This document shows positions 25,811-41,778 of a DNA stretch of 41,778 nt, piece after piece (position 1 is the first letter of the stretch; each line of letters opens with the position of its first letter). The translations under genes were made by a program, and so were the position numbers. Origin of the DNA: an uncultured Actinomycetes bacterium. Its GTDB lineage: Bacteria; Actinomycetota; Acidimicrobiia; Acidimicrobiales; RAAP-2. The DNA is taken from NCBI GenBank assembly GCA_903847955.1, contig CAINFA010000214.1:1-41778 (forward strand), read 5' to 3'. Below the pieces are notes generated by a model. The model saw nothing but the letters and a program-made list of their open reading frames with translations. It was not told the DNA's origin and searched no databases.

Positions 25811-25961
25811 CTGACGCCCTTTCCAGTGGCTCTCCTCGGCCGTCAGTGTACCGAGCGGGCTATCGGTTCCTTGGGCGCCTTCGACCTTGCCTCACCCCGA
25901 CCGCACCCCTACGCTGCTCGTGGATCCCTGTTCGCAGCGACCACAACGATCGAGGAGTCCC

Positions 25962-28900
25962 ATGCACAACGTTCCGACCAAGGTCAGGTCGCACCGGTCC
26001 GCCATCGCTGCGCTCACCATGAGCACCATCGCCGCCACGGTGACGGTTGGAGCACCAGGAATTGCGGGAGCCGCAGGTGTCAGGCCGGGCGCACCCCAGC
26101 ACGTGCGCGCCACGGTAACCCCCACCACCGCTACCGTGTCGTGGACGGCACCGGCCTCGAGCGGTTCGAAGCCCATCAGCAGCTACACCGTCACCGCGGT
26201 TCCCGGCAACGAGTCGTGCCAAACCTCCACCACCTCGTGCACCGTCGATGGCCTCGTGGCAGGAACCCGCTACATCCTCACCGTGGTTGCCACCAGTGCA
26301 GTGGGGACGAGCGCAACCTCGGCTCCCCTGAGCTGCACCCCGGGCACCACGGTCAACGGCGTCGTGCTCTACCCAGGCGCGAACCTGTCGGGCGCGAACC
26401 TGGCCGGCGCTGCGCTGACGGGGTTGAACCTGACCGGGGCCAACCTGACTGGTGCCGACCTCACCGGAGCCGACCTCGAGGGCGCCAGCTTGGCCAAGAC
26501 CAAGCTCACGGGAGCCAGCCTCGACGGAGCCAACCTGACCGGGGTGTCCTCGGGCAAGATTCTCGGAGCACCATCGAGTCTGCCCACGTCGTTCCACCTC
26601 GATGGTGGATACCTCATTGGGCCCAAGGCAGCACTCGAAGGTGCCGCCTTGGCAGGGCTCGACTTGGCGAGCACCAACCTGACCGGTACCGACCTCACCG
26701 GTGCCAACCTCACCGGCACGAACCTCCAAGGCGCTCGGCTCTCGGGCACCATCCTCTCGGGCGCCAACCTGACCGGAGCGGCTCTCGCACGCGTTGTTTC
26801 ATCGGGAATCGTCGGCGTCCCCTCGAGCCTGCCCGCGCAGTGGCTGCTGGTCGGTGGAGTCCTCGTCGGACCAGGCGCCAACCTCCAAGGTGTCAACCTC
26901 GCCGGGGCCGACCTGTCCAACCTCAACTTGACCTACGCCGACCTGCGCAATGCCAACCTCGAAGGTGCGGTCCTCATCAGGGTGAACCTGACCAGAGCAG
27001 ATCTCGAGGGTGCGGACCTCACCGGGGTGAGCTCGGGCGGCGACCTCGGCACGCCGAGCATGCTCCCGGCCTCCTTCGAGGTGGTTGGCGGCTACCTGCT
27101 TGGCCCTGGGGTGAACCTCAGCAACGCGAACCTCAGCGGGCTCGCCTTGACCGGTGCCGACCTCCAAGGCGCCAACATGGCCGGTGCCGCGCTCAGCGGC
27201 ACGGCACTGGCGGGGGTCAACCTCTCGGGCGTTCGCTCGGGGCAGATCACGACGACCCCGGCCTCGCTCCCCTCCCCATGGAGCCTCGTCGACGGCTACC
27301 TGCTTGGCCCAGGGGCCAACATCTCGGGCGCCAACCTGGCGGGCGCGAACCTGACCGGCGTCAGCTCAGGAAGCCTCGTGGGCACCCCGGCCTCACTGCC
27401 GATCGGCTACAGCGTGGTCGCTGGCTACCTCGTGGGACCCGGAGCCAACCTGGCGGGAGCTGCTCTGTCGCAAGCGAACCTGACTGGCGCGAACTTGACC
27501 GGCGCCAACGTGGCCGGAGCGGTCCTCGCTGGTGCCACCTTGACCGGTGCCAGCTCTGGGGGGATCACCGGCACGCCCGCCAGCCTCCCTGCGGGCTGGA
27601 GCCTGCTCGGTGGGTACCTCGTGGGTCCTGGTGCCAACCTGTCGGGCGCGAACCTGACCGGGCTGAACCTCGGCACCGCGAACCTGACGGGAGCCAGCCT
27701 GAACGGCGCCCAGCTCGGCGGAGCCAACTTCGGTAGCGCAACCCTCATCGGGGTGACCTCGGGGTCAGTGACCGGGGCCCCAACGGCGCTGCCAGCGAAC
27801 TGGAGCATCACCGACGGGTACCTCGTTGGACCCGGCGCCAACCTCACTGGGGCGAACCTGACCGGCGCAGACCTGGCAGGGGCCAACCTCGCCCAGGTGA
27901 CCTCGGGAGGGATCACCGGCAGTCCTGCGACACTCCCGGCCGGCTGGACGTTGCTCGGCGGCTACCTCGTCGGCCCCGGTGCCAACCTGTCGGGCGCCTC
28001 GCTCGTTGGCGCCAACTTCGACGGGCTCGACCTCACGGGAGCCAACCTCACGGGAGCCAACCTCGCCCGCAGCAGCTTCGAGGCCACGACGTTGACCGGC
28101 GCTAGCTTCACGGGGGCCACCTTGACCGGGGTGAGTTCAGGTTCGATCTCAGGCACCCCGGGCGCCGAGGCCGCCGGCTTCGCCGTGGTCAACGGGTACT
28201 TGGTTGGACCCGGTGCAGCACTGAGCAATGCCACCTTGGTCGGCGCCTCCCTCAGCGGCATCAACCTCACCGGCGCATCGCTGTTCAAGGCCAACTTGAC
28301 CGGGGCCAACTTGGCAGGCACCACCTTGACCGGCGCCACGCTGGCGGGTGCCACCTCGGGGTCCATCACCGGCACGCCCGCAGCACTGCCGGCGAACTAC
28401 CAGCTCGATGCCGGCTACCTCGTTGGACCCGGCGCCAACCTCACCGGGGCGCAGCTCACAGGCGCCAACCTCACTGGGGCTGACTTCCAAGGCTCGAGTA
28501 TCAACGGAGCGCAGTTCGCCGGAGCAACCTTGACTGGGGTCACGAGCGGCCTCGTGAGCGGAACGCCAGCCAACCTCCCCGCTTCGTGGAGTCTCATCGG
28601 CGGGTACCTCCTTGGCCCCGGCGCGGCGTTGCATCGAGCCAACCTCTCCTACATCAACCTCACGGGCCTCAACCTCTCAGGTGCAGATCTCAGCAACGCG
28701 GACCTCTCCTCCAGCACCCTCACCGGAACCAGGCTCGATGGCGCCAACCTGGCAGGCGTCACCAGCGTCGGCATAACCGGGATCCCCACCTCACTCCCGA
28801 ACAACTTCGAGGTGACCGCGGGGTACCTCGTTGGGCCTGGGGTGAACCTGAGCGGGGCAGCCTTGGGAGGCGCCAACTTAACCGGCGCGGACCTCGCAGG

Positions 28901-30209
28901 GGCAGTGCTCACGGGGGCGAGCCTGGCAGGGACCGTCTTGTCGGGGGCGTCGCTCAGCGGAACCCGAAGCGGCGGCGTCACAGGCACCCCGGCGTCGCTA
29001 CCGACCAACTTCATCCTCGCTGCTGGGTACCTCGTCGGGCCGAGCGCCAACCTCATTGGCGCAGCCTTGGGAGGCGCCAACTTGACCGGCGCGAACATCA
29101 GCTCGGCACAGGTGTCTGGGGCGGTCTTCGCGGGAGCAACGGTGACCGGACTTCGATCTGGACACCTCAACGGCACCCCGACCTCCCTCCCGACCTCCTG
29201 CAAGTTGTCGAGTGGGTTCCTGCTGTGCCCCGGGGTGGACCTCTCGAACTCCACCTTGACCGGGGTGCAGCTCAGCGGGGCCAACCTGGCGGGCGCAAAC
29301 TTCACCGGTGCCACCATCACCGGAGCCTCGCTCGCTGGAACCGCGCTCGCAGGAGCGAACCTCACCAACATCACCTCTGGCGGGCTCAGCGGCACCCCCT
29401 CCTCACTGCCCACCAACTTCACCTTGGGAGGCGGCTACCTCCTCGGACCCGCCGTCAAACTCGCCGGTGCCCGGCTGACGGGATCGGTGCTCATCGGGGC
29501 CAACCTGACGGGGGCGAACCTCAAGGGAGCGAACCTCGCCGGTGCCTCCCTCCAGAAGGTGGTCTTGACCGGTTCGTTGCTCACTGGGGTCACCTCGGGA
29601 GGGATCACCGGTGTACCTGCGGCGCTCCCCGCCGGCTTCCAGCTCACCGGTGGCTACCTCATTGGCCCCGAGGTGGACCTCTCGGGTGCCAACCTGACGG
29701 GATTGAACCTCACCGGGGCGAACCTTCGAGGGGCGATCCTCACCGGGGCGAACCTCGCCAAGGTCACCTTGACCGGTGCCACCTTGACCCAGGTGACCTC
29801 AGGGGGTGTCTCGGGGAACGTCGGCTCCCTGCCGACCAGCTGGTTGCTCGTTGGCGGCTACCTCGTGGGCCCCGGTGCGAACCTCACCGGTGCGAACGTG
29901 ACAGGGCTGAACCTGGCCAGCGCCGACGTGCATGGGGTCAGCTCCGGCGGTCTCGTTGGCACCCCGGCCAGCCTTCCCACCGGCACCACCATTGTCAACG
30001 GCTACTTCGTCGGCATCGATGCCTACCTCGTCAACGCGGTGCTCGTGGGTGCGAACCTTCGAGGCCTGAACCTGACGGGGGCGAACCTCACCGGGGCCGA
30101 CCTCACCGGGGCGACGGTGACGGGGGTGACCTGGACCGGTGCCACCTGTCCCGATGGCACCACAGCTGCAGTCGATGGCGGCACCTGCGCCAACAACCTC
30201 AGCCACTGA
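25962..30209 (+). CDS. Large secreted pentapeptide-repeat protein with N-terminal fibronectin III domain (~1415 aa)
   Basis: Signal-like N-terminus; FN3 (PGAPQHVRATVTPTTATVSWTAPASSGSKPISSYTVTAVPG); long A(N/D)LxGANL arrays interrupted by 18 SG-x-TGTPxSLPxxWxLxGGYLVGP inserts. Confidence 0.93.
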   Translation: MHNVPTKVRSHRSAIAALTMSTIAATVTVGAPGIAGAAGVRPGAPQHVRATVTPTTATVSWTAPASSGSKPISSYTVTAVPGNESCQTSTTSCTVDGLVAGTRYILTVVATSAVGTSATSAPLSCTPGTTVNGVVLYPGANLSGANLAGAALTGLNLTGANLTGADLTGADLEGASLAKTKLTGASLDGANLTGVSSGKILGAPSSLPTSFHLDGGYLIGPKAALEGAALAGLDLASTNLTGTDLTGANLTGTNLQGARLSGTILSGANLTGAALARVVSSGIVGVPSSLPAQWLLVGGVLVGPGANLQGVNLAGADLSNLNLTYADLRNANLEGAVLIRVNLTRADLEGADLTGVSSGGDLGTPSMLPASFEVVGGYLLGPGVNLSNANLSGLALTGADLQGANMAGAALSGTALAGVNLSGVRSGQITTTPASLPSPWSLVDGYLLGPGANISGANLAGANLTGVSSGSLVGTPASLPIGYSVVAGYLVGPGANLAGAALSQANLTGANLTGANVAGAVLAGATLTGASSGGITGTPASLPAGWSLLGGYLVGPGANLSGANLTGLNLGTANLTGASLNGAQLGGANFGSATLIGVTSGSVTGAPTALPANWSITDGYLVGPGANLTGANLTGADLAGANLAQVTSGGITGSPATLPAGWTLLGGYLVGPGANLSGASLVGANFDGLDLTGANLTGANLARSSFEATTLTGASFTGATLTGVSSGSISGTPGAEAAGFAVVNGYLVGPGAALSNATLVGASLSGINLTGASLFKANLTGANLAGTTLTGATLAGATSGSITGTPAALPANYQLDAGYLVGPGANLTGAQLTGANLTGADFQGSSINGAQFAGATLTGVTSGLVSGTPANLPASWSLIGGYLLGPGAALHRANLSYINLTGLNLSGADLSNADLSSSTLTGTRLDGANLAGVTSVGITGIPTSLPNNFEVTAGYLVGPGVNLSGAALGGANLTGADLAGAVLTGASLAGTVLSGASLSGTRSGGVTGTPASLPTNFILAAGYLVGPSANLIGAALGGANLTGANISSAQVSGAVFAGATVTGLRSGHLNGTPTSLPTSCKLSSGFLLCPGVDLSNSTLTGVQLSGANLAGANFTGATITGASLAGTALAGANLTNITSGGLSGTPSSLPTNFTLGGGYLLGPAVKLAGARLTGSVLIGANLTGANLKGANLAGASLQKVVLTGSLLTGVTSGGITGVPAALPAGFQLTGGYLIGPEVDLSGANLTGLNLTGANLRGAILTGANLAKVTLTGATLTQVTSGGVSGNVGSLPTSWLLVGGYLVGPGANLTGANVTGLNLASADVHGVSSGGLVGTPASLPTGTTIVNGYFVGIDAYLVNAVLVGANLRGLNLTGANLTGADLTGATVTGVTWTGATCPDGTTAAVDGGTCANNLSH
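26370..30140 (+). repeat. Higher-order protein-coding repeat: pentapeptide blocks plus ~26-aa insert, 18 insert copies
   Basis: Insert copies counted by eye, first SSGKILGAPSSLPTSFHLDGGYLIGP and last SSGGLVGTPASLPTGTTIVNGYFVGI. Confidence 0.9.
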
Positions 30210-30216
30210 GCTCGAC

Positions 30217-31326
30217 TCAGCCCGGCCGCGTCGTCGTGGTGGTGGTGGAAGTGGTGGACGTGGTCGTCGTGGTCGGAGGGCGCTCAATGAAACTTCCGCC
30301 AGAGATGGTCCATCCCGTCGGCAGTACCCGCGGGGTGCCGAGGAGACCAGAGGAGTGCGTGTCGGTCAGATCGGCCCCGGCGAAGCTGGTGCCGCTGACG
30401 ATGTCGTTGGTGAAGGTTGCTCCACTGCAGCTGGCCTCATCGAGGTTCGCGCCTGAGAGGTCGACGTCCACCACGTGCGATCCGGTGAAGATCGCACCCA
30501 CGAGGTAGCTGCCGGCGAGGTCGACCCCTGCGAGGTTGACCCGCTCGAGGTGGGCGTCGCCGAGCACCGCAGAGGGGCCCAGCAGGTAGCCCGAGATGAG
30601 GTGCCACGACGCCGGCACTCCCACCGGCACTCCCTTCAAACCTCCCGAGATGATGCCCTTCAAGGTGGTCCCGGTCAGGTTGGTGCCCGCCAAGAGGTCG
30701 TTGGCCATGCTGGCGCCAGCGAGGTCGGCACCGGTCAGGTTGGCGCCAGCGAGGTTGTGGTTCCACAGCAGGACCCGGGCCAGGTTGGCGTGGGTCAGGT
30801 CCACCTTCGGGCCTACGAGGTAGCCACGGACCAACCCAACCAATCGGGGCTCGCTCGCAGGGAGGCCTCGAAGCCCCCCGGTGCGGATTCCCGGCACGCT
30901 GGCTCCGAGGAGGTGGGCGCCAGCGATGTTGGCACCGGTCAAGGTGGCGTTGGCGAAGTTGGCACCACTCGCCGTTGCAGCTACGAGGGAGGCTCCTCGC
31001 ACCATGGCACCGACCAACTGGGCTCCATCGAGGTTGGCCCGGTCGAGGTTGGCACCCGCTAACCGGGCGCGGTCGAGGTTGGCACCCTCGAGGTTGGTTC
31101 GGGCCATGTTCGCACCAACCAGGTTGGCGCCGGCCAGGTTCCGATGCGCGAGGTTGCACCCTGCCAAGTTCGCTCTCGGACCGACGAGGCAGCGGGGCCC
31201 GTGGTGGGTCACCGGAGCGTGGGTGGCGGCCGGGTGCCCGGTCGCAGCGCCGGCCAGGGCAGGAGCGTTGAGCACGGCCAGAGCCATCGCACCGGCTAGG
31301 ACTGCCTTGGACCTCGCTCGCACCAT
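30217..31326 (-). CDS. Secreted pentapeptide-repeat protein with Thr-rich C-terminus
   Basis: Signal-like MVRARSKAVLAGAMALAVLNAPALAGAA; NLAGANLVGANMARTNLEGANLDRARLAGANL; inserts ISGGLKGVPVGVPASWHLISGYLLGP; tail TTTTTSTTSTTTTTTRPG. Confidence 0.9.
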   Translation of the reverse strand: MVRARSKAVLAGAMALAVLNAPALAGAATGHPAATHAPVTHHGPRCLVGPRANLAGCNLAHRNLAGANLVGANMARTNLEGANLDRARLAGANLDRANLDGAQLVGAMVRGASLVAATASGANFANATLTGANIAGAHLLGASVPGIRTGGLRGLPASEPRLVGLVRGYLVGPKVDLTHANLARVLLWNHNLAGANLTGADLAGASMANDLLAGTNLTGTTLKGIISGGLKGVPVGVPASWHLISGYLLGPSAVLGDAHLERVNLAGVDLAGSYLVGAIFTGSHVVDVDLSGANLDEASCSGATFTNDIVSGTSFAGADLTDTHSSGLLGTPRVLPTGWTISGGSFIERPPTTTTTSTTSTTTTTTRPG

Positions 31327-31408
31327 TGCCTCCCTCTGGCGTCTCACCCTAGGAGCGGCTCGGCCGCTGGACCACGCGCCGGCTGAGGTTCGCTCAGCCA
31401 ACCACGGC

Positions 31409-32105: not shown

Positions 32106-32891
32106 ATGCACCCCGGGAGCATCGCCACCACGTCGATCGGGGGATGGACCGGGGTGCTCGTCCTCGTGGCGGGGTTCGGCGCGGGGCTCTTCAACGGTGT
32201 CGCCGGTGGGGGCACCATGCTGACGTTCCCCACCTTGCTGGCCCTGGGAATCCCGGCGCTGACCGCCAACATGTCCTCCACCATCGGCATCGTGCCCGGC
32301 TACCTCACCTCGGTGGCGGGGTTCGGGCCGCACCTCAGCGCCCGCAAGGCAGAGCTCACGCGGCTCGCCTCGGCTGCACTCGGGGGTGGTGTACTCGGTT
32401 CAGCGCTGCTGCTGACGACGAGCGCGGCCACCTTCAAGGTGGTGGTGCCGTACCTCGTGGGAGCGGCCACCGTGCTGTTCGCCGTCCAGCCCCTGGTCGT
32501 GGCGCAGTTGGCCCGACGAGACCAGCACCGTGCCCGACCGGTGGCCATGTGGTGTGGCACCTTCGTGGCCTCCCTCTACGGCGGCTACTTCGGTGCCGGG
32601 ATGGGCATCGTGCTGCTCGTGGTCTTCGGGTTCACCTCCACGCTGTCGTTGCTCGAGAGCTCGGGGCTTCGGTCCGTGGTGTCAATTGCGGTGAACGCCC
32701 TGGCGGCGGGCATCTTCTTGCTGCACGGCTCGATCGATGCCGCGGCGGTGGCGTGGCTCCTCCCCGGCAGCCTGCTCGGCGGCTGGGTCGGCGCCAAGGT
32801 GGCCACTCGGCTCCCGGCTCGCTGGCTTCGAGTGGTGGTGGTGGTGGTCGGCATCACCACGGTGGCGCTCCTCTCGACGGGGACGACCTAA
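32106..32891 (+). CDS. TSUP (TauE/SafE) family sulfite/anion permease
   Basis: GFGAGLFNGVAGGGTMLTFPTLLALGIPALTANMSSTIGIVPGYLTSVAGF; GGYFGAGMGIVLLVVFGF. Confidence 0.9.
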   Translation: MHPGSIATTSIGGWTGVLVLVAGFGAGLFNGVAGGGTMLTFPTLLALGIPALTANMSSTIGIVPGYLTSVAGFGPHLSARKAELTRLASAALGGGVLGSALLLTTSAATFKVVVPYLVGAATVLFAVQPLVVAQLARRDQHRARPVAMWCGTFVASLYGGYFGAGMGIVLLVVFGFTSTLSLLESSGLRSVVSIAVNALAAGIFLLHGSIDAAAVAWLLPGSLLGGWVGAKVATRLPARWLRVVVVVVGITTVALLSTGTT

Positions 32892-32919
32892 AAGCCGACA
32901 CATTCGCTAAGGTTTGTGC

Positions 32920-33420
32920 ATGGCGAAGACCTTCAGCTTCCCGAACCCCGTTGATGAGCACGCCGCTCGTACCGTCGCCACCGGCGTGGTGGTCTTGGCC
33001 GTCCTCACGCTCGCGACGGGCTGGGCTGCGCTGTCCATCGTGCTGATGGCCGGCTTCTGGGCTCGGGTGCTGACGGGGCCCACCTTGTCCCCCCTCGGCC
33101 AGTTGGCAACCAAGGTGGTCGCCCCCCGGTTCGCCCAGCCCGTGCTGACCGCAGGTCCACCCAAGCGCTTCGCGCAGGGCATCGGCGCAGCGCTGTCGAG
33201 CGCGTGTGTGGTGGTGTGGCTCACGACCTCGTGGTCGGTGGCCCAGTGGGTGCTCGTGCCGCTCATCGTGGCGGCATCGCTCGAAGCATTCGCGGGCTTC
33301 TGCCTCGGCTGCTACGTCTTCTCCAAGCTGATGGTCCTTGGGGTTATCCCCGAATCGACCTGCCTCGAGTGCGCAGAGATCAGCCGCCGCCACCCCGAGC
33401 TCAAAGCAGCGCGCCCCTAG
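32920..33420 (+). CDS. DUF4395 domain membrane protein
   Basis: FPNPVDEHAARTVATGVVVLAVL; GPTLSPLGQLATKVVAPRF; PKRFAQGIGAALS; FCLGCYVF...CLEC. Confidence 0.82.
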   Translation: MAKTFSFPNPVDEHAARTVATGVVVLAVLTLATGWAALSIVLMAGFWARVLTGPTLSPLGQLATKVVAPRFAQPVLTAGPPKRFAQGIGAALSSACVVVWLTTSWSVAQWVLVPLIVAASLEAFAGFCLGCYVFSKLMVLGVIPESTCLECAEISRRHPELKAARP

Positions 33421-35231
33421 CGACCACCATCTTGGCGGGCGATCGCCGCGGCCAAGGCTGCTGCGTTGAGCCCTGGGGCGGGTCGCCGGGCCTCAGCCGC
33501 CGTGTTGGGCGTGAGGGGGGAGATGTAGCCGACGATGGAGTCGGTGCCGGTCACCGTCGTGGTCTCAGGGATGTAGCCCGAGTCCCAGACGTTCACCACT
33601 GAACCCTGAGCATCGACCGGACCTGCATTGCCTGCGATGACGTCGATCAGATTGCCCTTGACGCCGGCGATGAGGCCGACGTGGTCGCCGATTCCGCCCT
33701 TCATGACGCCCCAGACCACCGCATCGCCCACCTTGGGGTTGTTGGTCGCGCCCGGCTTGAAGGTGCCGTGCGCCTCGCCCCAGTTCACGAAGGAGAAGCT
33801 GTAGCCGGTGATCCCGGTGGTGTTGACCCCAGCCTTGGTCCACACCCACTGGGCGAAGTCCGAGCACCACTCCTCGGCCGCAGTTCCGGTCTTGCAGCCT
33901 GTCGTCGTGCCCCGTGCGAAGAACGCGGTGTAGGGGTTGCAGTTGCTGTTCAGCGGCGTCTCGACCACCTTGGCCCCGTTCTGATCCTGGCTGGCGGCCG
34001 TGAGCACGATGCGTGCCCCCAGCGCGATGGGGCCGGCGTCTTGGGCCACGATGACCTCGGCTCCCGCCGCGCTCGCCACGCTCGGCGCACCAGCCACCAA
34101 CTCCTCGGTGCTCGCCAGGTAACTGAGATCCACGCCCCGCCAGCCGCCAGGGCCCTTGGAGATCTCGTCGAGGTCGCCCGTGGTGCTCCGCGCTACGGCC
34201 TCAATGCCACTGGTGGTGGCGACGAGTACCGGTGGCGAGGCGACGACCGTGCTCCCAGGCAAGCCCAGCGCGCTCGGGGTGAGCACGAGCGACGACCAGG
34301 TTCCAAGTGGCCCCGTGGCGCTGAAGCTGAGGACGGCACCGGTCGTGCTCACCCCGAGCGCCCACAGGCCGCTCGAGGTGGCGAGCAACGACGGGGAGCC
34401 CGCCAGCGCGGTGCCGGCGGGAAGACCGAGGTGCTGCAGGGACCACCATGAGTACCCCGAGTCGTCATCGGTGTACAGCGCCGCTGCGCCGCCCTGCTCG
34501 GCCACCAAGACCGATTCGATCCCTCCCCCGTCGGGGAGCAGTTGGGCGCTGGGGGTGCCAACGATGGGCACTCCTCCGGCGATGGCGGTGAGGTCGTAGG
34601 CATCCCAGAGGTGCCCTCCCAGATCATCGGCTTCGAACTGGACGAGGTCACCGGTGCTCGCCCGGCAGAAGACTTGCAAGGCGCCCCCGGCGCCGAGCAG
34701 GAGGTCTGGAGTGGCAGTCACCATCACCATGCCGACCGCCGTGGTCAAGTCCGTCAAGGTGAAGACCGAAGGACTCACGGACGAAGAGGTCAACAACAGC
34801 AGGTGTCCGCTGGTGGTCACCACCGCTAGGTCGATGCCGCCTCCTGGGGTGATCAGGGGCCGGCCCACAGCGCTGAGGGTCGCAAGCCCGAGTGTGGCTG
34901 AGACGTTCGTGGCAGCGCTGCCGAGCGGGACTTGGGGGGTGGTGGTGGAGACCTCGAGCGCCCCAGAGGACGTCACGCCGGCGACGACGGTGAGCTGGGC
35001 GCTCTGGGCCACCACCGGGTCCGCACCGAGCTGGGGGAAGCGACCACTCACGTTGAGGTCGGTTGCAGTGGTGTTGAGCACTTGGCCGGGCTGGGAGAAG
35101 ACCTCGAGGTCGCCGTGGGTAGCGACCGGGCTCGATGGGACGACCGCCGAGGCCAAGGGCGCGACCGTCCAAGCCGAGGCGAATGCCACGGCCGCCACGA
35201 GCGCCGAGGTGGCGCGCCTCCAACGTGTCAC
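33417..35231 (-). CDS. Secreted protein: N-terminal beta-propeller-like repeats, C-terminal CHAP amidase/peptidase domain
   Basis: GTG start 35231 with signal peptide; AEEWCSDFAQWVWTKAG (Cys) and GIGDHVGLIAGVKGNLIDVIAGNAG (His) CHAP motifs; upstream GDLVQFEADDLGGHLWDAYDLT-type repeats. Confidence 0.82.
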   Translation of the reverse strand: MTRWRRATSALVAAVAFASAWTVAPLASAVVPSSPVATHGDLEVFSQPGQVLNTTATDLNVSGRFPQLGADPVVAQSAQLTVVAGVTSSGALEVSTTTPQVPLGSAATNVSATLGLATLSAVGRPLITPGGGIDLAVVTTSGHLLLLTSSSVSPSVFTLTDLTTAVGMVMVTATPDLLLGAGGALQVFCRASTGDLVQFEADDLGGHLWDAYDLTAIAGGVPIVGTPSAQLLPDGGGIESVLVAEQGGAAALYTDDDSGYSWWSLQHLGLPAGTALAGSPSLLATSSGLWALGVSTTGAVLSFSATGPLGTWSSLVLTPSALGLPGSTVVASPPVLVATTSGIEAVARSTTGDLDEISKGPGGWRGVDLSYLASTEELVAGAPSVASAAGAEVIVAQDAGPIALGARIVLTAASQDQNGAKVVETPLNSNCNPYTAFFARGTTTGCKTGTAAEEWCSDFAQWVWTKAGVNTTGITGYSFSFVNWGEAHGTFKPGATNNPKVGDAVVWGVMKGGIGDHVGLIAGVKGNLIDVIAGNAGPVDAQGSVVNVWDSGYIPETTTVTGTDSIVGYISPLTPNTAAEARRPAPGLNAAALAAAIARQDGGR

Positions 35232-35393
35232 GTGCGAGCCTCCCTCTTCTCCTGAGGTTCCGGCACCTGCCGGCGAAGCTCCGCCCACGAAAAGGCTACC
35301 AGTGCACCTCGTCGTGAGCACGGCCCCAGCACCTGAGCGAATCCCGAAGACCCCTCAGGGGCACGGCGTCCGCCAGCCCTAGCATGGGCACCG

Positions 35394-38300
35394 ATGAGTG
35401 AGGTGACCATGGGTCGAGGGGTACGTCGAGCAGCAGCGTTGGCCATGGTCGCAGCCATGGGCGCCGTCTTGCCGCTGTGCACCGCCGGCGCCACGACCAC
35501 CGTGCGCCACCATGGTGGAAGCCACCGGCAACGCCCGATCCCGGCTCCAGCCATTCCACGGGGGGCGCACCGCACCGGCCTGCTGGCCAAGGGCACCAGG
35601 TTGCACCTCGCCGTTGGCCTGCAGCCTCGGGACCCCGCCACGCTGGCGGCCTTCGCCGCCGCGGTCACCGAACCGGGGAACCCCGCCTACCACCACTACC
35701 TCCGCCGGGGCGCCTTCGCTCGCGTCTTCGGTCCCACGACGGCCACGATCTCGACCGTCGAGCACGCCTTCTCCCAGGCCGGATTCAGCATCGGCCGCCT
35801 CGACGCCAGTCACCTGAGCCTCGAGGTCTCCGCCCCAGCGGGCACCGTGGCCCGGTTCTTCCACACCAGCTTCGCCACCTACACCTTGGCCGGGGGTACC
35901 TCGGGCTACGCCATCACGTCGTCGCCGACGTTGGCCCAAGCGGTCCGCGGTGAGGTGACGTCCATCCTCGGGCTCACCACCTTGGACCGCCAGCATGCGC
36001 TCGGCCTGCCCACCACAGCAGCGAGCCACACCACGGCTCGGGCCACAACTGCTCCTACGCCGTGCTCGACGCTCACCAACGACATCAGTGGCCAGAACGA
36101 CCAGGGAACCTTCACCACCGACCAGCTGGCCCAGGCCTACGGCCTGACCTCGCAGTACGCCAACGGCAACTTCGGCCAGGGGGAGACCATTGGGCTCTAC
36201 GAGCTCGCCCCCTACCTCTCGAGCGACGTGGCCACCTACGACCAGTGCTACGGCGTGAGCCCCACCATCAAGAACGTGAACATCGACGGTGGTCCGTGCG
36301 CGGGGCTGTCTGGCTCGAGTTGCCAACCTGATGCCGAGCCCACCTTGGACATCGAGGAGATCGCCAGCCTCGCCCCCAAGGCCACCATCGTCGTCTACCA
36401 GAGCAACCAGAATGGCAACGCGGCCAACGACTTGTTCAGTGCCATCGCAGACGACGACGCCGCCCAAGTGGTCAGCTACAGCTGGGGAGGCTGCGAGCAG
36501 CAGGACACCGGCGCCTACGGCACGGCCTGGGAGGCAACGGTGCTCGAGCAGATGGCCGCCCAAGGCCAGACCGTGGTCGCCGCCTCGGGCGACGACGGTG
36601 CCTCGGACTGCTGGACGACTGGCGACCCCACCACCGCATCGAATATCGAGCAGGCCGTTGATGACCCGGGCAGCCAGCCCTTCGTGACGAGCGTGGGCGG
36701 CACGTCGACGTCGTCGGTCAACCCCCTGGCCGAGACGGTCTGGAACGACGGCATCGGCGGTGGGGCCGGTGGTGGTGGCCCGTCGAACGTGTGGGGCCTG
36801 CCGTGGTGGCAGAGCTCGGTGGCTGCTGCTGAGCCGGCCGGAATCGCCACCCCGGCCCGGATGGTGCCCGACGTCTCGTTCAACGCAGACCCCAACACCG
36901 GGGTCATGATCTACCAGCAAGGCTGGTCTCCCATCGGCGGCACCAGTGCCGCTGCACCGCTCTTCGCCGCCATCGTCGCCTTGGCCGATGCCCACTGCCA
37001 CCGCTCGCTGGGCTTCATCAACCCTGCGCTGTACGAGTTGTACGCCAGTAATCCTTCGGACTTCTACGACGTGACCTCTGGGACCAACGCCCTGTTCTCC
37101 TCGGGCGCCAGAGCCATTGGGTACACCGCAAGCCAGGGCTACGACCTGGCCTCTGGGCTCGGCTCGACCACCGCCGGATTCTTCACCGACATCTGCGCTG
37201 CCCCGAGCGCCCAGGTCACCTCCACCAATGCCTCGGCTGGCCAGGTGACCACGCTCTCGGTGACCACCACCGCACCCACCCAGCTCGCCGCAGGCACCGC
37301 GCTCTCCCTCGAGTTGCCCTCGGGCGCATCGTTCCCCGTGACCCCAACGCTCGTCGTCACCGCCGATGGAGCCCCCATTGGGGTGAGCGCACTGAGCGCC
37401 TCGACCGCCAGTGGCACCACGGGCACAACCCGGCTCCGCTTCGTCCTCAACGCACCCATTGCCACCGGTGCCACCGTGGTGGTGCGCGTCCCCAACGTGC
37501 TCAACCCCGAGAGCAGCGGCGAGGTTGGCCTCACCGATGGGTCGGCGGCGCTCGGCTCACAAGTGGCCTCGGCCTCGACCGACTTCGGCGTGGCCGGCGC
37601 CTTGCCGCTGACCGCGTCGACCACCACCACGAGCGCCACGCCGCTCCCCACCACCGTGCTCACCAACCTTGGGCCGCAAGCGATCGGCTCGCTGTCGAGC
37701 ACGGGGGGCACCACGGTCGGCGTGGCCACCACCTCGGCGAGCCACCAACTCGCGCTCTCCCTCGAGCAACGTGGTACCTGGACCACCACGTCGCTGGCCC
37801 TGAAGGGCCTCAACACCGCGGCCGGCAAGCCTGGCCCGACCGACAGCCTCAGCTTGGCAACGAACCTCACGTCAATCAGCACCATCAGCACCACAGGCCA
37901 CGTGCTGGCGTTGGTCGCAACCACTCTGGGCGGTCCGACCACGGCCACCGACCTGACCGCGTCGACCAAGACCCCGGTGGCGGCGAGCGCGACCAGCACC
38001 TGCTCGGTCATCGTCGGCGCAACAGGTTCGTCCCGGGTGGTCGTGGTGGCCCGCCTGGCCAATGGCTCCCTCGAGCAGTACACCTCGCGCACCCAAGGAG
38101 CGGGCCCCTTCACCGCCACCGTGCTCACGACGGGCACGGGCACCCCGACGTGCACCACGAGTGGGAGCGACGTGCTCGTGGTCGAGCGCACCACCACCGG
38201 CCACGCGGCGGTGGTCACCGAGAGCACAGGGCGCACCACGGTGGTCGATGCCACCACGCTCAGCGGTGGCTCCAGCTTGGCCAATGATCCGACCTCGGCG

Positions 38301-38666
38301 GAGGTCGTTGGCACCACCGCCCTCATCGGCGTGCGCTTCGCCAACGGACACCTCGGGGTCCTCACCGGGACCGCCGGGCGCTTCAGCCAGGTGGACTTGA
38401 CGGCGGCGTCGGGAGCTGGAGGGTCCACCTCGCCCTTCCTCACCGGTTCCCCCGGTGCCCTCGAGGCCGGGGCCGTGACCGCCGCCGGCGCACTCACCAT
38501 GATCGTCCAAGGCGCCGGAGGAACCACCGCCTTCAACCTCACCGAGACCAAGGGCCTACCCAAGCTCAGCAACCTCGCCGCCACACCTTCGACCACGGCC
38601 ATCATCGTGGCCGGGATCACCCAGGCCGGACACCTCGATGTCGTCACCACGCCACGGCTCGGCTGA
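35394..38666 (+). CDS. Secreted sedolisin (S53) peptidase with pro-kumamolisin prodomain and C-terminal Ig-like/propeller-like region
   Basis: Prodomain PGNPAYHHYLRRGAFARVFGPT; EPTLDIEEI (E/D pair), SGDDGASD, GGTSAAAP (catalytic Ser). Confidence 0.92.
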   Translation: MSEVTMGRGVRRAAALAMVAAMGAVLPLCTAGATTTVRHHGGSHRQRPIPAPAIPRGAHRTGLLAKGTRLHLAVGLQPRDPATLAAFAAAVTEPGNPAYHHYLRRGAFARVFGPTTATISTVEHAFSQAGFSIGRLDASHLSLEVSAPAGTVARFFHTSFATYTLAGGTSGYAITSSPTLAQAVRGEVTSILGLTTLDRQHALGLPTTAASHTTARATTAPTPCSTLTNDISGQNDQGTFTTDQLAQAYGLTSQYANGNFGQGETIGLYELAPYLSSDVATYDQCYGVSPTIKNVNIDGGPCAGLSGSSCQPDAEPTLDIEEIASLAPKATIVVYQSNQNGNAANDLFSAIADDDAAQVVSYSWGGCEQQDTGAYGTAWEATVLEQMAAQGQTVVAASGDDGASDCWTTGDPTTASNIEQAVDDPGSQPFVTSVGGTSTSSVNPLAETVWNDGIGGGAGGGGPSNVWGLPWWQSSVAAAEPAGIATPARMVPDVSFNADPNTGVMIYQQGWSPIGGTSAAAPLFAAIVALADAHCHRSLGFINPALYELYASNPSDFYDVTSGTNALFSSGARAIGYTASQGYDLASGLGSTTAGFFTDICAAPSAQVTSTNASAGQVTTLSVTTTAPTQLAAGTALSLELPSGASFPVTPTLVVTADGAPIGVSALSASTASGTTGTTRLRFVLNAPIATGATVVVRVPNVLNPESSGEVGLTDGSAALGSQVASASTDFGVAGALPLTASTTTTSATPLPTTVLTNLGPQAIGSLSSTGGTTVGVATTSASHQLALSLEQRGTWTTTSLALKGLNTAAGKPGPTDSLSLATNLTSISTISTTGHVLALVATTLGGPTTATDLTASTKTPVAASATSTCSVIVGATGSSRVVVVARLANGSLEQYTSRTQGAGPFTATVLTTGTGTPTCTTSGSDVLVVERTTTGHAAVVTESTGRTTVVDATTLSGGSSLANDPTSAEVVGTTALIGVRFANGHLGVLTGTAGRFSQVDLTAASGAGGSTSPFLTGSPGALEAGAVTAAGALTMIVQGAGGTTAFNLTETKGLPKLSNLAATPSTTAIIVAGITQAGHLDVVTTPRLG

Positions 38667-38703
38667 CCCCAGTGGGGATGAGCGCGACCGCTAGCGTTCA
38701 ATC

Positions 38704-41700
38704 GTGATCCTCGCCAAGCGGTCCTCGAGGGCGACCCGACGCGCGTTGCTCGGCGTGATGGCGATCGTCGCAGGAACGGTGGCAGTTGCCACCGACGCCA
38801 CGCCCTCACGGGCCGAGGGGGCCGCAACCCCCAACCAGCTCGACCAACTCTGGGGCTTCACCTCTGGCACCCCATCGACCGGGTCATCGTGGTCCGCGCA
38901 GGCGATTCCGGCCGCCTCGGGCCTCGGCCAGCTCGTGGGGGTCCCCACGGTCTTCGCCGACGGACCACACCTCGTTGCGGTGGCAACCACCGTCACCGGC
39001 AACGTGGTGATCGGCACGACCTCGAGCCCGAGCTCGACCGCGTGGGCCATGGAGAACCTCTCGAGCGTGCTCGGCATCGGGCCGGTGAACACCACCCCAG
39101 GTGCCTCCATCGATGCCGCTGGTGGGCTCGAAGTGGTCATCTGCACCGAGACTGGCCAGCTGCTGCTCGCCGACGAGCGCTTCGCCAATGGCTCGCTGTG
39201 GCAGGTGACGAACCTCACCACCGCCTCTCACGGACCAGCGGTTGTCGGACGACCGAGCCTCACCACCACCGGCACCGCCACCGAGGTCTTCGCCCGAACC
39301 GCAGCGGGCCACCTCGTCGAGTTCACCACCGCCGCGGTGGGCCAGCAGTCCTGGGACGCCATTGACCTGACCAAGCTGTCCGGGGCGCCACTGATCAGCT
39401 CTGACCCGTCGGTGACCACCGACGGCACCGTGCACTACCTCGCCGCACGCGGGCCCGGTGGGAGCATCGTCGAGTTAGCAGACGACGATGCCACCTTGCG
39501 ATTCTGGAGCGCTCGCACCCTCCACCTGCCCCAAGCCGGGGTGGGGCAGCCGAGCATCGTGGTGGCAGCGGGCCAGCCCTGGGTGTTCATCCGGGGCGTC
39601 AAGGGCGACCTCCTCGCGGCGACAGGCTCCCCAGGGGCGACAGAGAGCACGTGGACCGTCCAGGACCTGACGACCCAGATCACCGGTGCACCTGCGCTCG
39701 AGGCCCCACCCGTGGCGATCTCCACCGGCCAGGGCCTCGTCGTGGCCGCGCAGTCGATCTACGGCGGCCTCATCACCTACGACGCCTCGAGTGCCAGCTC
39801 GAGTGCCAGCTTCACCGTGACCGAGGTGCGCTCGGCGGACGGCTTCAGCGCCACCAGCGATCAGCTGGCCGGCATCGACCTCAACGGCCAGGTGGGCATC
39901 TGGGGGCTCGGCACCTCCAATGACGCCGGGGTGGGCACCGGCGTCTACGCCATTCCTGTGGCCGACAACGGCGCCGCAGTGGCCGACGGCTGGCCCGTGC
40001 TCGGGGTGACCGGCGCCTTGGGAGCCCCCACCTCTCCCTACACCGCCACCGACAATGGCCAGAACTTCGCCGTGGGCAAGGCGGTCGCCCAGGCCAACCA
40101 CCCCGTGACCTGGCTCAGCTTCTGGACCGTGTCAGGCCCACCCATCGCGGTGCGGCTCGCTGGGATGAGCTGCACGAGCACCTGCGTCGGGGTGGGCAGC
40201 TACGCCGATGTGAGCGGCACGTCGAGGGCCCTCGTGGTGTTCGGGACCACCGCTGGGTTCACCAGCGCCGAGGCAGTGCCGGCGCCGAGCGGTGCGGCGG
40301 TGAACCCTGCTGAACAGCTCAACGCCATTAGCTGCGCCTCGCCTGGGCGATGCACCGCGGTGGGCAGCGTTACCCTCTCGAACGGCTCCCAGGTGCCGCT
40401 GTGGGTCACCATCACCGGCACCGCCCTCGGGCTGAGTGAGGCGCAGGTTCCCCCGTCGAGCTCGAGCCCCGCCCACGCCAGCTTCGACGGGGTCTCGTGC
40501 CCAGCGGTGAGCAGCTGCGTGGCGGTGGGGAGCTTCCTCGATCCAGCTGGGCGAACCGAGGACCTCCTCGGCGCAACCTCGACCGCTGGGACCCACACCT
40601 TGGCCGCACCAGCTGGCGCCTCGTCGAACCCCCGCGATGGCCTCGCCTCAATCAGCTGTGCGTCGCTGACCACCTGCGTTGCGGTCGGCAGCTTCACCAC
40701 CCCCTCGGGCACCCTCCACCCCTTGGTGGGGTTCGTCAACGGTGCGGGCGAGGGGGTCCTCAAGGCCGCTCCGCTCCCCACCGGCGCACCCCACACCGCC
40801 AGTGCCCAGTTCACCGCCGTCGCCTGCCCCACGACCTGCATCGCCGTCGGAGGAGGCACCACCGCGGCAGGTGCCACCTTGGGGACCACCTCGTCGTTCA
40901 CCACCGCAGCAGTTGGAGCCTCGAGCTTCCTCGCCGCCCCCCCACATCCAGCAGCCAACCCGAACTCGACCTTGGAGGCCATCAACTGTGCGGCAGTGTC
41001 GGTCTGCGAGGCGGTGGGCGCTGCCACGAGCGCGTCGGGGGCTGTCCTCGGCTACGGCACCACCTTGTTCGCATCGGTGCCCACTGGCACGGCCTACGTG
41101 ACCGCTCCCACGGGCAGTTTGGCCAATCCCTCCATGCAGCTCGATGCGATTGGCTGCGTCACCTCGGGGAACTGCCTGGCGGGGGGCACTGCCCTCGACA
41201 GCGGGGGCGACCCGAGGCCGCTGACCTCGACGGTGGTGGGGGTTCGCTACCAACCGGCGCAGACCACCGTGCTCCCTCCGTCGGCCGCCGCGGCGTCCCC
41301 GGCCCACGCCTACTACGTCGCCGGCCAAGCGGCGGGTTCCTACGTCGGCTCGTCCATCGCCAGCTACGCCAGCCGAGGGCTCAAGAACCTCCCTGCCTTC
41401 GTGATCTTGGACCCTGAGGGCTACCCCGACCTGCACTCAGGACTCGACGGCCCACCTGGTCCGGCCTCAACGGCCAAGTGGACCCAGCTGCTCGCCGGCT
41501 GGGCTGCCGGGCTGCGAGGCGTGGACCCCAAGCTGCGTCCCGGGGTCTACTCCGACCAGTACGAGTACAACACCTACGGCCTCTCCCAGTTGGCCATCCC
41601 CGAGTTCTTGGCAGTGGCGTGGAACCTCACCACCGCCACCAACCCCAAGACCGGCTTGGCGCAGGTGGTGGCACCGCCCACGATCAACCCCAAGATCGCC

Positions 41701-41778
41701 CAAGGCCCCAACATCGAGGGCATCATCTCCTTCAACGACTGGTGCCCGAGCGACTGGGCGGTCAAGGGCACGACCGCG
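38704..41778 (+). CDS. Large secreted protein, 3' end beyond window: N-terminal propeller-like module, SC-x(n)-C-x-AVG repeats, C-terminal GH25/DUF1906-like domain
   Basis: Hand translation of frame 1 from GTG 38704 shows no stop to the window edge (about 1025 codons); MILAKRSSRATRRALLGVMAIVAGTVAVATDA...; C-terminal PAFVILDPEGYPDLHSG...RPGVYSDQYEYNTYG. Confidence 0.85.
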   Translation, partial: MILAKRSSRATRRALLGVMAIVAGTVAVATDATPSRAEGAATPNQLDQLWGFTSGTPSTGSSWSAQAIPAASGLGQLVGVPTVFADGPHLVAVATTVTGNVVIGTTSSPSSTAWAMENLSSVLGIGPVNTTPGASIDAAGGLEVVICTETGQLLLADERFANGSLWQVTNLTTASHGPAVVGRPSLTTTGTATEVFARTAAGHLVEFTTAAVGQQSWDAIDLTKLSGAPLISSDPSVTTDGTVHYLAARGPGGSIVELADDDATLRFWSARTLHLPQAGVGQPSIVVAAGQPWVFIRGVKGDLLAATGSPGATESTWTVQDLTTQITGAPALEAPPVAISTGQGLVVAAQSIYGGLITYDASSASSSASFTVTEVRSADGFSATSDQLAGIDLNGQVGIWGLGTSNDAGVGTGVYAIPVADNGAAVADGWPVLGVTGALGAPTSPYTATDNGQNFAVGKAVAQANHPVTWLSFWTVSGPPIAVRLAGMSCTSTCVGVGSYADVSGTSRALVVFGTTAGFTSAEAVPAPSGAAVNPAEQLNAISCASPGRCTAVGSVTLSNGSQVPLWVTITGTALGLSEAQVPPSSSSPAHASFDGVSCPAVSSCVAVGSFLDPAGRTEDLLGATSTAGTHTLAAPAGASSNPRDGLASISCASLTTCVAVGSFTTPSGTLHPLVGFVNGAGEGVLKAAPLPTGAPHTASAQFTAVACPTTCIAVGGGTTAAGATLGTTSSFTTAAVGASSFLAAPPHPAANPNSTLEAINCAAVSVCEAVGAATSASGAVLGYGTTLFASVPTGTAYVTAPTGSLANPSMQLDAIGCVTSGNCLAGGTALDSGGDPRPLTSTVVGVRYQPAQTTVLPPSAAAASPAHAYYVAGQAAGSYVGSSIASYASRGLKNLPAFVILDPEGYPDLHSGLDGPPGPASTAKWTQLLAGWAAGLRGVDPKLRPGVYSDQYEYNTYGLSQLAIPEFLAVAWNLTTATNPKTGLAQVVAPPTINPKIAQGPNIEGIISFNDWCPSDWAVKGTTA
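40165..41190 (+). repeat. Seven tandem Cys-pair repeats, consensus (L/F)xxIsC...C.AVGs
   Basis: AGMSCTSTCVGVGSY, NAISCASPGRCTAVGSV, DGVSCPAVSSCVAVGSF, ASISCASLTTCVAVGSF, TAVACPTTCIAVGGG, EAINCAAVSVCEAVGAA, DAIGCVTSGNCLAGGTA. Confidence 0.85.

Follow-up and report, generated by a model that had tools for sequence, protein, structure and literature searches.

At one end of the 41,778-nucleotide contig of an uncultured actinobacterium analysed here (hereafter the window), three adjacent genes encode large proteins, and an earlier note had suggested that these are secreted enzymes sharing one propeller-like extracellular module. Is this module real, what kind of propeller is it, and what would it do for the proteins that carry it? 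The three open reading frames are present at 33417-35321 on the minus strand (CHAP protein), 35394-38666 on the plus strand (sedolisin) and 38704-41778 on the plus strand (third protein, cut by the contig end). The CHAP frame as listed, from 35321, is probably over-extended, and the likely start is a GTG at 35231. A typical signal peptide was recognised by eye at the N-terminus of all three proteins. A promoter and terminator scan between the three genes found none.

The module common to the three proteins is about 360 residues long. It is N-terminal in the CHAP protein (residues 69-431; 34029..35117, minus strand) and in the third protein (residues 43-405; 38830..39918, plus strand), and C-terminal in the sedolisin (residues 736-1090; 37599..38663, plus strand). 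The modules of the CHAP protein and the third protein share 31% identity over 291 amino acids (BLASTP, E = 6e-22). The C-terminus of the sedolisin was marginal in pairwise BLASTP of single sequences, with E-values of 0.065 against the CHAP protein and 5e-4 against the third protein, and was therefore compared by means of profiles. We used hhalign with six-genome alignments, each comprising the window protein plus five orthologues. The sedolisin C-terminus then matched the CHAP module with a probability of 98.3% (E = 2.4e-14), the module of the third protein with 98.2% (E = 6e-14), and clear seven-blade relatives at E = 6.2e-16, while the CHAP and third-protein modules matched each other with 99.5% (E = 6.6e-23). 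Neighbouring non-module domains, used as negative controls, reached probabilities of at most 0.9%. Neither these domains nor the sedolisin region after shuffling of its columns (25 shuffles) scored above 21.5, as compared to 104-117 observed. Since controls and shuffles score so much lower, the resemblance at sequence level is far above what chance or a common Ala/Ser/Thr composition would yield. Hence, three adjacent secreted proteins indeed contain one homologous module, as the earlier note had proposed, in the frames and gene order that it described.

What kind of module is this? Relatives show almost regular blades of about 51 residues, seven to a protein, with the pattern GDLxEFxNDGxGGRxWNAYDLTxxxGGPxxxGDPSA. 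Divided manually, by eye, the window proteins fall into seven repeats as well. Searches of the window proteins against Pfam and NCBIfam gave no propeller match, including no match to Pfam DUF346, and a PDB sequence search with the module profiles gave nothing significant. An AlphaFold model of the CHAP protein, run with six sequences, had pLDDT values mostly of 65-91 in the module and of about 30 in the poorly modelled CHAP part. In Foldseek, the 22 best PDB matches of this model were all PLL/PHL lectins of Photorhabdus, with 8q82 as the best match (E = 1.7e-13, TM-score 0.73 on the target). Furthermore, the module profile of the relatives matched DUF346 proteins of a relative (L214) at E-values of 9e-10 and 1.5e-9. 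By hhalign, the module matched DUF346 proteins with probabilities of 67-91% (up to 90.6%) and scores of 41-56, whereas shuffles reached no more than about 20; for DUF346 proteins from actinobacteria further removed, the link was weaker. DUF346 itself is likely a PLL-like lectin (PMC7778903). Based on the lectin matches of the predicted structure, the sequence link to DUF346 and this literature, we identify the module as a divergent PLL-like (DUF346-related), predicted seven-bladed beta-propeller that Pfam misses. The idea of a propeller-type extracellular module is thereby supported by its seven repeats and by the structural matches.

The window modules resemble the PLL/PHL lectins of Photorhabdus (PropLec7A) and Pfam DUF346 (PF03984) in their seven blades of about 50 residues, in the Foldseek E-values down to 1.7e-13 and in the sequence-profile link through DUF346 proteins. 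They differ from these lectins and DUF346, however, in that identity is only 15-19%, below the Pfam cut-off, and from the lectins in that they are fused to secreted enzymes. DUF346 proteins in other Actinomycetota (L215, L216, L217) have trypsin, C70 peptidase or other enzymes as fusion partners, and thus combine a PLL-like propeller with a protease or other secreted protein as in the window, but with different enzymes and without a three-gene set.

In PLL, the binding sites lie between the blades, and stacking by tryptophan has a role in binding (PMC6943638). One conserved blade position, presumed to be the counterpart of the sugar-stacking tryptophan of PLL, holds Trp in four of the seven blades of the CHAP protein, six of seven in the third protein and one of seven in the sedolisin. 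Unlike in the PLL/PHL lectins, this position is thus degenerate in the CHAP and sedolisin copies of the window. On this measure, the case for glycan binding is strongest in the third protein and weakest in the sedolisin. The loss of this Trp, nearly complete in the sedolisin copy and partial in the CHAP copy, argues against sugar binding. Propellers also act as protein-binding or spacer domains. The window propellers might accordingly be surface spacers or protein-protein docking modules, which would gather the enzymes or hold them on the cell's own envelope without sugar. We regard this as rather unlikely: the degenerate Trp position, most so in the sedolisin, is what such modules would lead one to expect, but all best structural matches are lectins, the repeat to which the sequences are linked is lectin-like, and the third protein has kept Trp in six of its seven blades.

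The enzymes attached to the propellers could be identified for two of the three proteins. In the CHAP protein, a probable signal peptide and linker, delimited by eye (35118..35231, minus strand), precede the propeller, and the C-terminal part (33420..34028, minus strand) contains a Pfam CHAP domain at residues 484-565 (33627-33872, minus strand). The match to PF05257 has an E-value of 7e-7 and 30.1 bits, as compared to a cut-off of 26, and Cys486, His547 and Asn565 are invariant in six relatives, which confirms the proposed CHAP identity. Usually, CHAP peptidoglycan hydrolases bind the cell wall through SH3b or LysM domains. The window protein has the same domain and the same catalytic Cys/His/Asn, but bears an N-terminal PLL-like propeller instead.

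The sedolisin consists of a Pro-kumamolisin activation domain (residues 57-196; 35562..35981; PF09286, E = 1.4e-22), an S53 catalytic domain (residues 240-593; 36111..37172), a linker with a region assigned by eye as Ig-like (residues 594-735; 37173..37598) and the strongly diverged propeller, of which the putative blades were split by eye; all are on the plus strand. Its catalytic part matches kumamolisin 1t1e in a PDB sequence search (E = 1.1e-46). Glu315 and Asp319 align with the Glu/Asp pair of kumamolisin, and the Ser lies in GGTSAAAP (515-522). For the oxyanion-hole Asp the alignment is not clean, with the nearest Asp in SWGGCEQQD two positions off relative to kumamolisin. Hence, the assignment to S53 stands: pro-domain, catalytic domain and Glu/Asp/Ser are those of kumamolisin and other sedolisins, to which the window protein adds the C-terminal Ig-like region and propeller.

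The gene neighbourhood is conserved, as had been anticipated. TauE/SafE and DUF4395 genes form the conserved left flank of the locus (32106..33420, plus strand). Five genomes of genus g11 have the order TauE, (DUF4395), CHAP (minus strand), sedolisin (plus) and third protein (plus), with the module in each of the last three. In genus g10, the sedolisin gene lies directly upstream of the third-protein gene in 18 of the 20 loci examined, and the other two (L108, L115) are located at contig ends. These loci contain no CHAP gene, and the TauE and DUF4395 flanks are usually kept. Most g10 sedolisins lack a propeller and finish with a stretch of about 220 residues; in two of them, the tail is longer and weakly similar. 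A divergent pair of CHAP and third-protein genes, with no sedolisin, occurs in genera g7 and g19, and in g8 and g14 the CHAP and third-protein genes are at separate places. Overall, the module was present in 77 of the 172 genomes of the family; under a stricter cut-off, a sample of 397 genomes of the order gave four with a match, of which one lies outside the family. Another partner of the module occurs in a propeller protein (L041:766-2544; L106:10829-12691) with an N-terminal half that is CAP/SCP-like by eye and has no Pfam match.

In a tree of the modules, which is limited by long branches and uneven composition, those of the window's lineage fall into a separate clade for each gene, and the branching order inside these clades is the same. 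Recent exchange of modules between neighbouring genes was therefore not seen in this lineage. The same pattern suggests that each module evolves with its own enzyme, a point in favour of spacing or docking. In g8 and g14, the module of the CHAP protein clusters with that of the third protein, a pattern consistent with homogenisation in these genera.

Given this homology, fold and neighbourhood, and with the DUF346-enzyme fusions of other actinobacteria as a further point in favour, we consider the best explanation, with a probability of roughly 60%, to be that exported hydrolases are held on a surface by probably sugar-binding PLL-like propellers encoded at a conserved chromosomal locus. Signal peptides would export all three proteins. 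Their propellers might then bind surface sugars, possibly one shared ligand, on the cell's own or its neighbours' envelope polysaccharides or on soil polymers, and so hold and concentrate the attached enzymes at the bound surface. There, the CHAP amidase/endopeptidase would act on peptidoglycan and the acid sedolisin on protein, and the orphan domain of the third protein is probably a hydrolase too. The earlier note had gone on to common targeting, cell-wall remodelling and killing of neighbours in acidic settings, and these roles we can only infer.

Whose wall would be the substrate? The proteins could serve as autolysins when the cell itself divides and renews its wall, and the sedolisin would then be a maturation protease. 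The locus is chromosomal, vertically inherited and kept in many genomes of the family, and PADLOC defence models gave no match, all of which agrees with such a role. The large genus g10 has no CHAP gene at this locus, to which the comparison is confined, and this argues against it; we consider the autolysin role possible but doubtful. Alternatively, the proteins could kill or digest neighbouring bacteria in predatory or nutritional lysis. Secreted peptidoglycan- and protein-degrading domains combined with a putative lectin would suit such attack. Sedolisins (S53) work at acid pH, and the relatives come from bogs and palsas according to their records. This origin and the pH preference are all that the acidic settings would fit, and neither comes from the window itself. 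The locus showed no recognisable immunity gene, and we regard attack on neighbours as distinctly unlikely. Evidence from sequence does not distinguish a docking or spacing role from wall turnover or from attack on neighbouring cells.

The third protein begins with a signal peptide region, delimited by eye (38704..38829), followed by the propeller and an orphan C-terminal domain defined by the alignment of relatives. This domain is split into part A (residues 411-488; 39934..40167; motif WLSFWTVSGP) and part B (residues 868-1025, truncated; 41305..41778; motifs VILDPEGYPDLHSG and QYEY) by an inserted domain (residues 489-867; 40168..41304), all on the plus strand. The insert of 379 residues has seven Cys-pair repeats about 55 amino acids apart, at 489, 543, 598, 651, 707, 761 and 817, and is perhaps a second propeller. 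It splits the orphan domain in the window and genus g11, and the other genera in the alignment lack it. The Cys-containing repeats of the insert recur in two more proteins of this genome (L010 on contig C53, L011 on C5). The last ~38 amino acids of the third protein were seen only on contig C190, of which 350 bases (L009:1-350) overlap window positions 41429-41778. Because this overlap is only 92% identical in DNA, C190 belongs to a related strain, and the genome bin mixes related strains. On C190 the third gene is followed by an Lhr-type helicase gene, which also flanks the locus in relatives.

The orphan domain is kept in many genomes (24-row alignment A8). It matched no Pfam family (24 members searched), no NCBIfam family and no PDB sequence. 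The label GH25/DUF1906-like, given to the third protein in the earlier note, did not hold. In hhalign comparisons with 28 DUF1906 and 30 GH25 sequences, with shuffled columns as controls, the domain scored 26.6 against DUF1906 (shuffled maximum 27.7) and 13.8 against GH25 (shuffled maximum 26.8), so that both were rejected at the sequence level; the two reference families are themselves barely linked by this method (score 30.9), and a distant common fold would escape it. A D-x-E motif at a predicted strand is shared with Rv2525c-like proteins (DUF1906, PF08924) and GH25, but there is no significant profile similarity. An AlphaFold model of the orphan domain from a three-row alignment had a pLDDT of 38.8, too low in confidence to use; its best Foldseek E-value was 0.54, and the weak matches include several glycosidase barrels. 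We propose, tentatively, that the orphan domain (WLSFWTVSGP, VILDPEGYPD-HSG, Q-x-EY) might represent an enzyme family of its own, perhaps a new glycoside hydrolase with the wall or exopolysaccharide as its substrate. The locus might at the same time be a set of lytic proteins that are addressed by lectins and restricted to this Acidimicrobiaceae-type family.

Fusions of lectin-like propellers to secreted hydrolases are of a known kind, which includes the DUF346-protease fusions in other actinobacteria. The novelty lies in a propeller family missed by Pfam, in the set of three genes and in the orphan domain. Among the papers searched, none names both Acidimicrobi- groups and sedolisins. Our results identify the overlooked family as PLL-like, tie it to secreted hydrolases of uncultured soil actinobacteria, and isolate one conserved orphan domain for direct testing.

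Several related architectures were seen along the way. Other members of the same family (L130-L134) combine a different repeat (YWLVASDGGIFSFGDA...), another propeller, with a DUF1906-type domain in a parallel architecture. A homologue of the third protein in genome G014 (L065:9571-12438) has no propeller; it has weak B_lectin (bulb-type lectin) and putidacin-like lectin matches instead, which speaks for a lectin role of the propeller, although the bulb-lectin ones are below cut-offs. Finally, two large pentapeptide-repeat proteins, one of 1440 amino acids with an fn3 domain and the other of 394 amino acids, are encoded tail to tail at window positions 25887-31401, adjoining the locus.
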